From Streptomyces davaonensis JCM 4913 (GTDB taxonomy: Bacteria > Actinomycetota > Actinomycetes > Streptomycetales > Streptomycetaceae), in the NCBI RefSeq assembly GCF_000349325.1, contig NC_020504.1, positions 7,730,326-7,794,325 on the forward strand: 64,000 bases of DNA, in the 5' to 3' direction. A program made the position numbers and the translations under genes. Of this stretch, positions 22,727 through 27,510 are shown piece by piece (positions within the stretch are counted from its first letter, which is position 1; each line of letters begins with the position of its first letter). The notes under the pieces were generated by a model. It made no database searches. It was not told where the DNA came from and saw only the letters and a list, made by a program, of their open reading frames with translations.

Positions 22727-23956
22727 ATGTATGCCTGGCCCGCTTCTGAGGTCCCCGCCCTGCCCGGCAAGGGCCGCGACCTCCGGATCCACGACACCGC
22801 GACCGGTGGACTCGTCACCCTCGAGCCCGGTCCCGTCGCCCGTATCTACGTCTGCGGCATCACCCCGTACGACGCGACCCACATGGGTCACGCGGCGACC
22901 TACAACGCGTTCGACCTCGTGCAGCGCGTGTGGCTCGACACCAAGCGGCAGGTTCACTACGTCCAGAACGTCACCGACGTCGACGATCCGCTGCTGGAGC
23001 GGGCCGAGCGCGACGGCGTCGACTGGGTGGCCCTCGCCGAGAAGGAGACCGCCCTCTTCCGCGAGGACATGACCGCCCTGCGCATGCTGCCCCCGCAGCA
23101 CTACATCGGCGCCGTCGAGGCGATACCCGGCATCGTGCCGCTCGTCGAACGCCTGCGTGAGGCGGGCGCCGCCTACGAACTCGACGGCGACATCTACTTC
23201 TCCGTCGAGGCCGACCCCGACTTCGGCAAGGTCTCCGGCCTCGACGCCGCCGCGATGCGGCTGCTGTCCGCCGAGCGCGGCGGCGACCCGGACCGTCCGG
23301 GCAAGAAGAACCCGCTCGACCCGATGCTGTGGATGGCCGCCCGCGAGGGCGAGCCGAGCTGGGACGGCGCCTCGCTCGGCCGGGGCCGCCCCGGCTGGCA
23401 CATCGAGTGCGTGGCCATCGCCCTGGACCACCTCGGCATGACCTTCGACGTCCAGGGCGGCGGCTCCGACCTCGCCTTCCCGCACCACGAGATGGGCGCC
23501 TCGCACGCCCAGGTGCTCACCGGCGAGTTCCCCATGGCCAAGGCCTACGTCCACGCGGGCATGGTCGCCCTGCACGGCGAGAAGATGTCCAAGTCCAAGG
23601 GCAACCTCGTCTTCGTCTCCGCGCTGCGCCGGGACGGCGTCGACCCGGCCGCCATCCGGCTCGCGCTCCTCGCCCACCACTACCGGGCCGACTGGGAGTG
23701 GACCGACCAGGTGCTCCGGGACGCCGAGGCGCGCCTGGCCCGCTGGCGCGCGGCCGTCTCCCGGCCCGACGGCCCGGGAGCGGAGGCGCTGGTCGAGGAG
23801 ATCCGCGAGGCCCTCGCCAACGACCTCGACGCCCCGGCCGCGCTCGCCGCGGTCGACCGCTGGGCGGCGCTCCAGCAGGAGCGCGGCGGCACCGACGAGA
23901 GCGCCCCCGGCGTCGTGTCGCGCGCGGTGGACGCGCTGCTGGGCGTGGCTCTGTAG
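22727..23956 (+). CDS. mshC: Cysteine--1-D-myo-inosityl 2-amino-2-deoxy-alpha-D-glucopyranoside ligase
   Basis: 409 residues. ATP-dependent ligase joining cysteine to GlcN-inositol, the third dedicated step of mycothiol synthesis. Related to cysteinyl-tRNA synthetase: HIGH-like motif ATHMGHA near residue 47, zinc-site residues including the Cys of [14 protein letters not shown] and FPHHE, and the KMSKSKG loop near 286. It lacks the anticodon-binding domain of CysS, the size difference that separates MshC from CysS. The start is set by TACGCT 6 nt upstream and the family N-terminus [14 protein letters not shown]. Confidence 0.96.
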
Positions 23957-24019: not shown

Positions 24020-24487
24020 TCACAGGCGTTGGATCCGCACGCTCCGCAGGACGTTCGGCGACTGGGTGTCCCAGACGCCGACGACCTGGTGGCCGAAGGC
24101 GAACGCCTGCTGGATCTGCTGCTGGATCTGCGGCGTCGGGCTGTTCAGGACCCGGAACTGGCCGTTGATGCGCAGGAAGATCTGGTGCGGCTGCCCCTGC
24201 ACCGGGTGGACGAAGTCGATGAAGCCGTTCGCCACACCGGCGGCGAGCGCCTGTGCCTGCACCTGCTGGACGAGCTGCTGCACGGCGGCCAGCGAGATCT
24301 GCTGGAGCTGCTGCTCGGCCTGCTGCGCCTGCTGGTCCTGTTGGGGTGTCATCTGCTGCAACAGCTGCTGGTACGGCTGCTGCTGGCCGAGCTGCTGGAG
24401 CTGTTCCAGCGAGCCGAACTGCTGCTGGTACGGCGAGGTGCTCGGGTACTGCTGTGCCATCTGACCCATTTGCGGGGTGGTGCTCAT
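24020..24487 (-). CDS. Glutamine-rich protein with C-terminal module shared with the adjacent subtilase
   Basis: 155 residues, not a recognised family. Residues 1-80 are extraordinarily Gln-rich and likely helical or disordered. Residues 85-155 form a small ordered domain: FIDFVHPVQGQPHQIFLRING, then FRVLNSPTPQ and AFAFG. That last part aligns with the C-terminal 50 residues of the subtilase encoded just upstream. No signal peptide or membrane helix. ATG at 24487 preferred; an in-frame ATG nine codons earlier is possible, and neither has a strong ribosome site. Lies 53 nt after the subtilase stop, so probably the same transcript. Confidence 0.75.
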   Translation of the reverse strand: MSTTPQMGQMAQQYPSTSPYQQQFGSLEQLQQLGQQQPYQQLLQQMTPQQDQQAQQAEQQLQQISLAAVQQLVQQVQAQALAAGVANGFIDFVHPVQGQPHQIFLRINGQFRVLNSPTPQIQQQIQQAFAFGHQVVGVWDTQSPNVLRSVRIQRL

Positions 24488-24540
24488 ACGGGTGTCACCT
24501 TCCCTTGCTGTCATGGGTTTGCGCTGTCATGGAACGGTTG

Positions 24541-26256
24541 TCAGCCGGTGATCACCAGGCCGACGATCTCGTCGTCCGAGAACCACACCCGGACGTCGGG
24601 CCGTCCCCCCGCAAACGCGGTGTGCACCGCCTGGCGGAGCTCGGGGGACGGACGGTTCAGGTTCCGCCAGGCACCGGCCACGTACAGCCGGAGCCTCGGC
24701 GGGAGTTCACGCGGGTACGGCAGGAGTTCGTCCCAGTACCGTTCGGCCCGGCCCGAGCCGACCGCGTGCGGCAGCAGTTGGGGCACCGCCGCCCTGATGT
24801 CGGGCCGGGAGCCGATCCGCTGCGAGGCGGGCCGGCCCGGCGCGTCCTGTTGCGGGGAACCGCTCGCCCGCAGCACCGCGCGGGCGCGTTCGGCGGCCAT
24901 CGGGGCCTGACCGGCCGCCCTGAGCATGCCCTGGAGCGCGGCCAGCGCGCCGACCACCACCGGTGCGGCGGCGGAGGTCCCCGAGAACGTGTCGGTGTAC
25001 CAGGCGATCTCCTCGGGCCCGCCCTGGAGATCCCCGGGCCGGTCCCAGAAGCCGCCGGTGGTCGTGACCTCGTGCCCCCAGCCCTGCGCGTCCACGCGCG
25101 AGCCGTAGTTGGAGAACGCCAGCCTCGACCGGTCCGGGCCGTGGTCCCGGCCGTGCGTGCCGGGCGGCGGGGCGCCCGCGCCGACCAGGACGGCACCGGA
25201 GGACGGGTTGGACGGGTTGAACGGGTTGCGCCACCCGCGCGGGAACTCGTCCGGGCGGCGCTCGTAGACCGCATCGTCCAGCGACTCGGCGCCGTTGCCC
25301 GCGGCCGCCACCACCAACACGCCCTTGGCGGTGGCGTGCCGCACGGCCGCGAAGTCGTCCGGCCACCACTCCAGGGGGAGGTAGCCACGCTGGTCGTCGC
25401 GCTCGGCGTACTCGAACCGCGGTCCCGGCCGGTGGAGTTCGACCAGCACGATGTCGCCGGGCGCGAGCCGCTCCGCCGCCGCGTGGATCGCGGCCGCGGT
25501 GCCGACGCCCTGGAAGGACGCGGCCGCGGTCACCGCGTCCGGCGCGGCGCCCTGGACGCCGTACTGATTGCGCTCGCCGCCGATCACGCCGATCACGGCG
25601 GTGCCGTGGTTGCGCCAGGCGAGATCGTCGACCGGGGTGCCGACGACGACCCCGGCCAGCCGGGCGGCCAGATCCTCGTGGCCGAGCTGCCAGGCGCCCT
25701 CGACGTCGATCACCGTCACACCCTGACCGGTCCCGCCGGGCCGCTGCCAGGCCCAGTGGGCGTCGATGCCCTCGGGCGCGGGCCGCAGATAGCCCTGGCG
25801 GCTGCCGAAGTCGGGGGTGACGGCCGCGCCTTCCTTCAGCCTGCGGTCCTCCTCGCTGTGCAGGGTCGCGGGCACGGCGCCAGGTTTCACATACGCCGTG
25901 TCCACGCCCGGCAGCGCGGCGATGCGCGAGCGCAGTTCCGCCGCGCGGCCCTCCCCGCCACGCACCCGGTAGAAGACCGCGAGGTCGTTCTCCGGATCCG
26001 CGGACGGGGACTGCTGCACGCGCTCCTCACTGCCGAACAGCGGCTCCAGGGCCAGCTGTTCGTCGTCGAGGAACATGTTCAGCGCCGAGACATCGGCGCC
26101 CGCCGCCGACCGTACGCCCTTTGCCCCGGCCCGCAGCCTGGCCTCCGGGCGGGCGACGACGATCAGTTCCCGCTCCGCTCCTCGATAGGTGAATCCCGCT
26201 CCGTCGGGACCCGGTCCGGACGCTCCCGGGCCCTGCGGCTGTACCTGATCGGTCAT
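24541..26256 (-). CDS. S8 family serine peptidase (subtilase) without signal peptide
   Basis: 571 residues. An N-terminal region (25-130) resembles a propeptide (FYRVRGGEGRAAELRSRIAA...). The catalytic domain (about 165-465) has Asp184 in VTVIDVEG, His217 in RNHGTA, oxyanion Asn321 in AAAGNG and Ser428 in SGTSAAAP, so the triad is complete. The last ~60 residues form an extra module with the pattern G-x-W-R-x-L-N-x-P-S-P and AFAGG, shared with the glutamine-rich neighbour. There is no signal peptide or membrane helix, unusual for the family and pointing to a cytosolic job. ATG at 26256 chosen by AGGGAG about 10 nt upstream. Confidence 0.88.
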   Translation of the reverse strand: MTDQVQPQGPGASGPGPDGAGFTYRGAERELIVVARPEARLRAGAKGVRSAAGADVSALNMFLDDEQLALEPLFGSEERVQQSPSADPENDLAVFYRVRGGEGRAAELRSRIAALPGVDTAYVKPGAVPATLHSEEDRRLKEGAAVTPDFGSRQGYLRPAPEGIDAHWAWQRPGGTGQGVTVIDVEGAWQLGHEDLAARLAGVVVGTPVDDLAWRNHGTAVIGVIGGERNQYGVQGAAPDAVTAAASFQGVGTAAAIHAAAERLAPGDIVLVELHRPGPRFEYAERDDQRGYLPLEWWPDDFAAVRHATAKGVLVVAAAGNGAESLDDAVYERRPDEFPRGWRNPFNPSNPSSGAVLVGAGAPPPGTHGRDHGPDRSRLAFSNYGSRVDAQGWGHEVTTTGGFWDRPGDLQGGPEEIAWYTDTFSGTSAAAPVVVGALAALQGMLRAAGQAPMAAERARAVLRASGSPQQDAPGRPASQRIGSRPDIRAAVPQLLPHAVGSGRAERYWDELLPYPRELPPRLRLYVAGAWRNLNRPSPELRQAVHTAFAGGRPDVRVWFSDDEIVGLVITG

Positions 26257-26550: not shown

Positions 26551-27510
26551 GTGGCTCCCACACACGGTTCCTTCGCACATCCCCTCAGCCGCCGCGGACT
26601 GCTCACCGTCGGCGCCGCGGCCACCGGTGCCGCGCTCGTCGGCGCGCCCGCACACGCTGCCGCCGGCCCGGCCGTGATCCCACTGCCGAACGGCTTCCGC
26701 CCGGAGGGCATCACGATCGGCGGCGGCCCGTACGCCTACCTCGGCTCGCTGGGCGACGGCTCCCTCTACCGCGTCGACCTGCGCACCGGCACCGGCAAGA
26801 TCGTCTCGGCCGGACCCGGCACGCCCTCGGTCGGCCTCAAACTCGACGACCGGGGACGGCTGTTCGTGGCCGGCCGCGGCGAGGGCGCCCGCGTGGTGGA
26901 CGCCCGCAGCGGCGAGATCCTCGCCTCCTACGTCCTTTCCACCACCACGCCCACCTTCGCCAACGACGTCTTCCTGACCCCGCGCGCGGCCTGGTTCACC
27001 GACTCCTACCAGCCGGTCCTGTACGCCCTCCCGCTCGGCCGGCACGGCCAGTTGCCGGACCCGGACGACGTCGTACGGATCACCCTCGGCGGCGACTGGA
27101 GCCAGGCGCCCGGCGAAGTCGTGAACGCCAACGGCATCACCCGCACCCCCGACGGCTCGGCCCTGCTCGTGGTGCAGTCCGGGGTCGGCACCCTGCACCG
27201 GGTCGACCCGCGCACCGGCGTCACCGCCCGCGTCGACCTCGGCGACGCGGCCCCCCTCACCAACGGCGACGGTCTGCTGGTGACCGGGCGGACGCTGTAC
27301 GTCGTGCAGAACCGGCAGAACGCCGTCGACGTCTTCACCCTGGCCGCCGACGGCCGCAGCGGGGTCTTCCGGCGCCGGATCACCGACCCTGCCTTCGACG
27401 TGCCGACGACGGTGGCCGCGTTCCGGGGGCGGCTGTATCTGCCCAACGCGCGGTTCACGACGACTCCGACGCCCGAGACGACGTACGCGATCGTCTCCGT
27501 GCCCAAGTGA
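26551..27510 (+). CDS. Tat-exported SMP-30/NHL-like beta-propeller protein
   Basis: 319 residues. Twin-arginine signal LSRRGLLTVGAAATGAALV with cleavage near AHA-AA (about residue 40), so exported folded. The mature part has repeated beta-propeller blades of the SMP-30/gluconolactonase type (GFRPEGITIGGGPYAYLGSLGDG; GLLVTGRTLYVVQN). Relatives in Streptomyces databases are often labelled superoxide dismutase, for which I see no metal site. Function unknown, perhaps a lactonase or binding protein. GTG at 26551 with GGAAGG 7 nt ahead. Divergent from the subtilase. Confidence 0.8.
   Translation: MAPTHGSFAHPLSRRGLLTVGAAATGAALVGAPAHAAAGPAVIPLPNGFRPEGITIGGGPYAYLGSLGDGSLYRVDLRTGTGKIVSAGPGTPSVGLKLDDRGRLFVAGRGEGARVVDARSGEILASYVLSTTTPTFANDVFLTPRAAWFTDSYQPVLYALPLGRHGQLPDPDDVVRITLGGDWSQAPGEVVNANGITRTPDGSALLVVQSGVGTLHRVDPRTGVTARVDLGDAAPLTNGDGLLVTGRTLYVVQNRQNAVDVFTLAADGRSGVFRRRITDPAFDVPTTVAAFRGRLYLPNARFTTTPTPETTYAIVSVPK

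Follow-up and report, generated by a model that had tools for sequence, protein, structure and literature searches.

A subtilase of Streptomyces and its glutamine-rich neighbour carry copies of one C-terminal module and form a conserved gene pair

Can a protease within a bacterium be recruited and controlled by a low-complexity protein? The question is posed by two adjacent genes of Streptomyces davaonensis JCM 4913, which lie in a stretch of 64,000 nucleotides (the window) and encode a 571-residue subtilisin-type peptidase and a 155-residue glutamine-rich partner. To our knowledge, cytosolic subtilases with a dedicated partner have been little studied. A preliminary description of the locus, whose coordinates proved right, proposed that the two proteins share a C-terminal module and act as an adaptor/recruitment or a substrate/inhibitor pair. 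Both genes are on the minus strand, the peptidase gene running from an ATG at 26256 to a stop codon ending at 24541 and the partner gene from an ATG at 24487 to a stop codon ending at 24020, with 53 nt between them (Table 1). By reading of translations, the source of all neighbour names given here, the neighbours of the pair are mshC on one side (plus strand, about 22730-23956) and, on the opposite side, a PAC2-type gene and an SMP-30-like gene in divergent orientation; corA, phosphoglycerate mutase, DUF3090, FadR-type and glp genes are further neighbours. The SMP-30-like gene (26554-27510, divergent from the peptidase) was found in 5 of the 13 loci having both mshC and PAC2. GGAAGG stands upstream of 31 of the 37 partner starts inspected, and the six starts that lack it include late or wrong start calls (G310, G125, G147, G313 and G083). 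The leader ahead of the partner start (24485-24509) reads GGAAGGTG[A/G]CACCCGCATG in many genomes, a conserved stretch longer than a ribosome binding site requires.

Table 1. Features of the peptidase/partner locus (positions in the window)
Feature	Position	Strand	Basis
S8 (subtilisin-type) peptidase, 571 aa, gene 1 of the pair	24541..26256	-	Pfam PF00082
Peptidase N-terminal region, residues 1-125	25882..26256	-	alignment; without family match
Peptidase catalytic domain, residues 151-490; D184, H217, N321, S428	24787..25806	-	alignment
Peptidase C-terminal module common to both proteins, residues 506-571	24544..24741	-	profiles, alignment
Glutamine-rich partner, 155 aa, gene 2 of the pair	24020..24487	-	relatives and conserved pairing
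Partner low-complexity part, residues 1-80, with 41% Gln and hardly any charge	24248..24487	-	composition, pLDDT
Partner Gln-rich conserved core LEQLQQLGQQQPYQQLLQQM, residues 27-46	24350..24409	-	pattern, alignment columns
Partner C-terminal module common to both proteins, residues 79-155, OB-like	24023..24253	-	predicted structure
Partner ribosome binding site AAGGGAAGG	24498..24506	-	GGAAGG kept before starts

By its Asp/His/Ser triad, its oxyanion asparagine and its match to Pfam PF00082 (48.1 bits, above the curated cut-off of 21.8), the window peptidase is an S8 subtilase. The triad had been described as intact, and D184, H217 and S428 are indeed present, together with N321. In an alignment of 165 sequences, into which some proteins entered twice, H217, N321 and S428 are found in all 165 and D184 in 164; the sole exception, G018, has Ala at 184 and is also without a partner. 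What the peptidase has in common with the S8 subtilases of PF00082 is the catalytic domain with its D/H/S triad and the oxyanion Asn; it differs from them in its extra C-terminal module, in showing no signal peptide and in scoring far below the NCBIfam cut-offs of named types, among which the mycosin type (39.5 against 278.75) and the PatA type (17.8 against 421.05) were rejected. A 'subtilase' match in PADLOC (23.5 bits) was taken as general S8 likeness. Among the best 120 of 3194 relatives, the other 119 listed are 82-93% identical to the window peptidase, and a search of viral contigs, sensitive to close relatives only, returned no relative. Judged from its position and its AYVKP end, the region of residues 1-125 is probably a prodomain. 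The absence of a signal peptide, part of the preliminary description, is borne out by a Kyte-Doolittle scan, which found no hydrophobic signal-like stretch at either N-terminus; across 38 genomes, no 12-residue stretch within the N-terminal 45 residues exceeds a hydropathy of 1.19 in the peptidase or 0.26 in the partner, by this simple scan rather than a signal-peptide predictor. The peptidase thus seems to work inside the cell. Its best conserved part is the C-terminal module (mean identity 0.889 in 38 genomes, against 0.863 for the catalytic domain and 0.814 for the N-terminal region).

The motifs on which the shared module was first recognised align exactly, GAWRNLNRPSP in the peptidase and GQFRVLNSPTP in the partner being followed after an equal spacing of 8 residues by AFAGG and AFAFG, respectively. 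In a single BLASTP comparison the two proteins are 40% identical over 40 residues (E 0.005). The BLOSUM62 score of the module pair is 81, against 21.6 +/- 4.0 in 5000 shuffles, none of which scored as high, and the same outcome (0/5000) was obtained in each of five module comparisons. A profile of the partner modules, built from the best 120 of 218 relatives at E <= 1e-3, matched 120/120 of the best 120 of 3194 peptidases (E 3.5e-8 to 9.3e-6), while reversed peptidases gave two matches, at E 23 and 29. In the other direction, the peptidase-module profile matched 120/120 of the best 120 of 218 partners (E 9.5e-10 to 0.045); here the best reversed partner (E 0.15) comes near the weakest true match, and this direction is less clean. 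Because shuffles and profile searches in both directions agree, these comparisons show that the two modules are copies of a duplicated unit of ~70 residues, and the similarity that had been claimed is above background.

That the similarity is due to chance or low-complexity bias we consider very improbable. This explanation could draw on the closeness of the true and reversed E values in the peptidase-to-partner search, and on two STAS-like proteins (L065 and L069) which reach 22 and 18 bits with the peptidase-module profile; these were rejected as chance matches, and scores of that size thus mean little alone. It is opposed by the shuffles, by the 120 peptidases matched against reversed sequences at E 23 and above, and by a second type of partner, described below, in which the match stretches across the whole module. 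Five columns (L24, R31, P36, A47 and F48, in the numbering of the first row) are invariant in 37/37 modules of both proteins. Pfam searches of these 37 modules at E <= 1 returned four families with one or two members each and a best E of 0.026, none a convincing match, and a sequence search against solved structures gave four matches, the best at E 0.24.

How dedicated is the partner to the peptidase? A profile built from 15 modules was used to search genomes, in each of which a limited set of candidates was scored. Within the genus, 28 of 199 genomes yielded the module, and within the order 18 of 147 did so at E <= 1e-3 (28 of 147 at E <= 0.1); combined, these searches give 43 different genomes, all Streptomyces. 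Searches of the class (345 genomes), phylum (296) and family (200), sets that overlap those of genus and order, returned, at E <= 1e-3, nothing from beyond the genus. Four of the weak matches (E 0.004-0.1) were read, the two best beyond the genus (E 0.008 and 0.004) among them, and all four were rejected, namely L065, L069, L071 (a TIR-like protein by reading) and L189 (which runs antisense to a gene resembling an acetyltransferase). Peptidase and partner modules are adjacent and on the same strand in 38 of the 43 module-bearing genomes, with gaps of 34-184 nt in the 36 pairs that could be measured; the longest, in G310, stems from a start called at a later Met. In a collection of named genomes, 29/29 partner loci, all of Streptomyces and at least four of them from genomes already among the 43, have an adjoining peptidase, and mshC was found in 23 of these 29 sequence stretches. 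The predicted co-occurrence of the two genes therefore holds and, together with a similarity above background, it upholds the proposal of a functional pair.

Of 15 loci compared, 13 have both mshC and PAC2 close by, and in two of the 13 (G236 and G117) several kb separate mshC from the pair. Distances between peptidases, computed without the module, follow those of mshC (r 0.81), and the pair thus seems to be vertically inherited. One of the 15 loci, in G192 (6% contamination; L040:1396-1713, L116), holds at the usual site a 105-residue remnant that joins the first residues of the peptidase to the module; prodomain and catalytic part are missing, and no partner gene was found.

Among the 43 genomes and 29 named loci, we found no partner without a peptidase. 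The reverse occurs in four of the 43: in G011 and G132 the peptidase stands at the usual site and the partner is gone, and in G018 and G325 a peptidase type 64-66% identical occupies a different site. The G018 gene (L008:1429-3213), which has Ala for the catalytic Asp184, is flanked by genes that read as TerB-like and chalcone-synthase-like. These facts of distribution and sequence show a dedicated pair, and by their asymmetry the partner is more likely to be an accessory, a scaffold or a substrate than an antidote that the peptidase cannot do without. A partner that restrains a harmful protease would accord with the tight linkage of the genes, and a common domain could yield a competitive blocker; yet three of the four solitary peptidases have intact catalytic residues, and the peptidase carries a prodomain-like region of its own. 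We therefore consider an inhibitor improbable: this part of the original proposal is disfavoured as far as it meant an obligatory antidote, and a toxin-antitoxin pair was likewise rejected, the effector being kept without its antidote in four genomes.

The partner is conspicuous by its composition. The first 80 residues had been described as over a third glutamine; the value is 41%, and over the whole protein it is 29.7%, against 1.1-5.0% in the 14 neighbouring genes as drawn, peptidase included. The Gln-rich tail is found in 38/38 partners as called, with 33-48% Gln, 0-6 acidic and 0-3 basic residues, and the pattern QLQQLGQQQP[FY]QQLLQQ, a custom one used with variants, is matched in 34 of the 38. 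Core columns of this part are nearly invariant in the alignment, and the most conserved stretch reads as a Q/L helix. Matches of the partner to JetC in PADLOC (best E 7.7e-5) and to an HrpE-type NCBIfam model (14.9 of 278 bits) were ascribed to Gln-rich low complexity. Among the partner matches listed, all that carry an organism name are from Streptomyces. In a predicted structure, residues 1-80 have low confidence (pLDDT block means 44-63) and residues 81-155 block means of 79-95. The latter comprise strands 81-91, 102-107 and 110-115, a helix at 119-130, and strands 134-140 and 143-153, so that the model shows the order of an OB fold, five strands of which the third and fourth are separated by a helix.

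A glutamine-rich protein of this kind could itself be the substrate, the module docking it for a peptidase that trims or releases the low-complexity tail. Its dependence on the peptidase throughout the 43 genomes and 29 named loci would be expected of a substrate, as would its fast evolution, partner modules being on average 0.58 identical to one another against 0.889 for peptidase modules. Set against this, no conserved cleavage-like site was noticed by eye in the partner, and the tail is conserved best where it reads as a Q/L helix. We regard this possibility as unlikely, though less so than that of an inhibitor.

The 38 partners fall into two types, that of the window (type 1, 22/38) and type 2 (16/38). 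The module of a type-2 partner in L057 reads FWDVVTPLPGQPSILYLFIDGAWRQLANP, and its counterpart in the L007 peptidase YWDELLPYPPELPPRLRLFVAGAWRDLNHP; in type-2 partners the match continues further upstream (YWD..P.P..) and spans about 66 residues. Against their own peptidases, type-2 modules score 112 (G274), 98 (G236) and 70 (G310), the window pair scoring 81, and the mean identity to peptidase modules shows a modest gain (0.304; type 1, 0.286). Placed on the mshC tree, the types need four changes and thus track lineages mostly, not strictly. Partner modules are 0.301 identical to the module of their own peptidase and 0.294 to those of others, the own value being higher in 25/38, and pair-specific matching is therefore not seen in the sequences. 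Peptidase positions that track the partner type are not concentrated in the module, which holds 2 of the 25 with mutual information above 0.3. The modules nevertheless diverge jointly beyond what mshC explains (n = 34; partial Mantel r 0.29, a value reached by 2/2000 permutations) and beyond what the rest of the peptidase does (0.27, 6/2000), against a weaker joint divergence of partner module and rest of the peptidase (0.185, 17/2000), in tests that remove effects of shared ancestry in part.

OB-like domains bind many ligands. It is accordingly conceivable, if less probable than direct coupling of the modules, that both copies recognise the same third molecule, be it a protein, a nucleic acid or a sugar, and make no mutual contact, the partner serving as co-receptor or competitor. 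The five positions invariant across all 37 modules, one of them an Arg, would suit such a common ligand, as would modules that are not matched pair by pair. A common ligand alone, on the other hand, needs no dependence of the kind seen here, where each partner found was accompanied by the peptidase.

Relatives from other genera of the phylum bear on the origin of the arrangement. Peptidases of G423 and G673 are 57-59% identical over the catalytic part and that of G837 is 40% identical, all three without the module as far as aligned; the module profile gave no match in G423, in whose family a peptidase relative at E <= 1e-30 occurs in 2 of 121 genomes, G423 included. The module-less relatives in L088, L089 and L090 have differing C-terminal ends, which fits an exchangeable C-terminal part, and one of them (L089:1195-3777, from G673) bears DUF346 repeats in the place of the module (PF03984, 47.6 bits). 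This suggests that the catalytic unit received different C-terminal parts over time. Upstream of this gene, a frame ending in AYVKPPAEPP resembles a prodomain that stands on its own, and still further upstream there is a match to penicillin amidase.

Taken together, we favour a cytosolic subtilase with a dedicated accessory, coupled OB-to-OB, whose Gln-rich tail serves as a gathering part, and put its probability at roughly 0.42; a common ligand comes next in our order of preference, followed by a substrate. The two-gene operon would produce the accessory together with a subtilase, the latter probably a zymogen that brings its own prodomain. The module would be an OB-like barrel, two copies of which may bind each other or form one mixed ring, and the uncharged tail may self-associate through its conserved Q/L helix. 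Such an assembly could gather the protease in one place or store it, and the raised local concentration would help intermolecular activation or substrate choice. We count for this reading the homologous modules, the adjacency of the genes, a partner never found without the peptidase, the conservation of the peptidase module and the joint divergence, and further the mshC/PAC2 context, the kept Gln-rich tail and the module-less relatives with different ends. Counted against it are the absence of pair-specific matching, type-tracking positions that are not concentrated in the module, the weaker co-divergence of the partner module with the rest of the peptidase, and G011 and G132, where the peptidase persists at the usual site on its own. 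An adaptor or recruitment role of the partner, with putative binding between the modules, is thus plausible and remains our best guess.

Does the pair belong to a known system? Kaur et al. (2020, eLife, PMC7159879) describe effector-associated domains (EADs), small non-enzymatic domains found in the proteins of two adjacent genes, for which like-with-like coupling is proposed. The present pair resembles these in having a small domain in both products of adjacent genes, one product being a protease, and differs in that its second copy is attached to a Gln-rich tail instead of an effector. Adjacent EAD copies are, by that account, mutual closest relatives; this does not hold here, where the module of the partner is 0.301 identical to that of its own peptidase, 0.294 to others and 0.58 among partners. 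Nor was a MoxR-vWA, GAP1-GTPase, iSTAND or other ternary core of EAD systems seen among the neighbours, as read from translations. As the closest-relative mark fails and core genes were not seen nearby, we do not file the pair under EADs.

The predicted fold is a common one. The partner model has the same order of strands and helix, and the same length, as OB-fold domains in the PDB (AB5-type toxin B subunits, SilF, eIF5A and PriB), and each of its first 13 structure matches is a Shiga-type B subunit (2.2-2.6 Å over 64-67 aligned residues). In SubAB and other subtilase-type AB5 toxins both proteins are secreted and B is a sugar-binding pentamer. The likeness is that of a subtilase encoded beside a protein with an OB fold, a predicted one in the present pair; here, by contrast, no export signal is seen, a copy of the module belongs to the peptidase itself, and the partner bears a Gln-rich tail. 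A secreted AB5-type toxin was rejected, the hydropathy scan of 38 genomes giving no export signal, and we read the likeness to SubAB as a coincidence of common fold. A literature search, with subscription journals mostly outside its scope, found no description of such a protease/partner pair.

A small conserved pair in easily handled soil bacteria, with an obvious active-site mutant, offers a direct test of protease control by a low-complexity protein. More specific, and rather doubtful, is the idea that the Gln-rich, nearly uncharged protein forms a cytosolic condensate or filament which collects the subtilase zymogen through the duplicated OB-like module, so that assembly sets when and where the protease acts. 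If true, this would be an undescribed form of regulated proteolysis in bacteria, set by assembly and not by a chaperone ring or a membrane.
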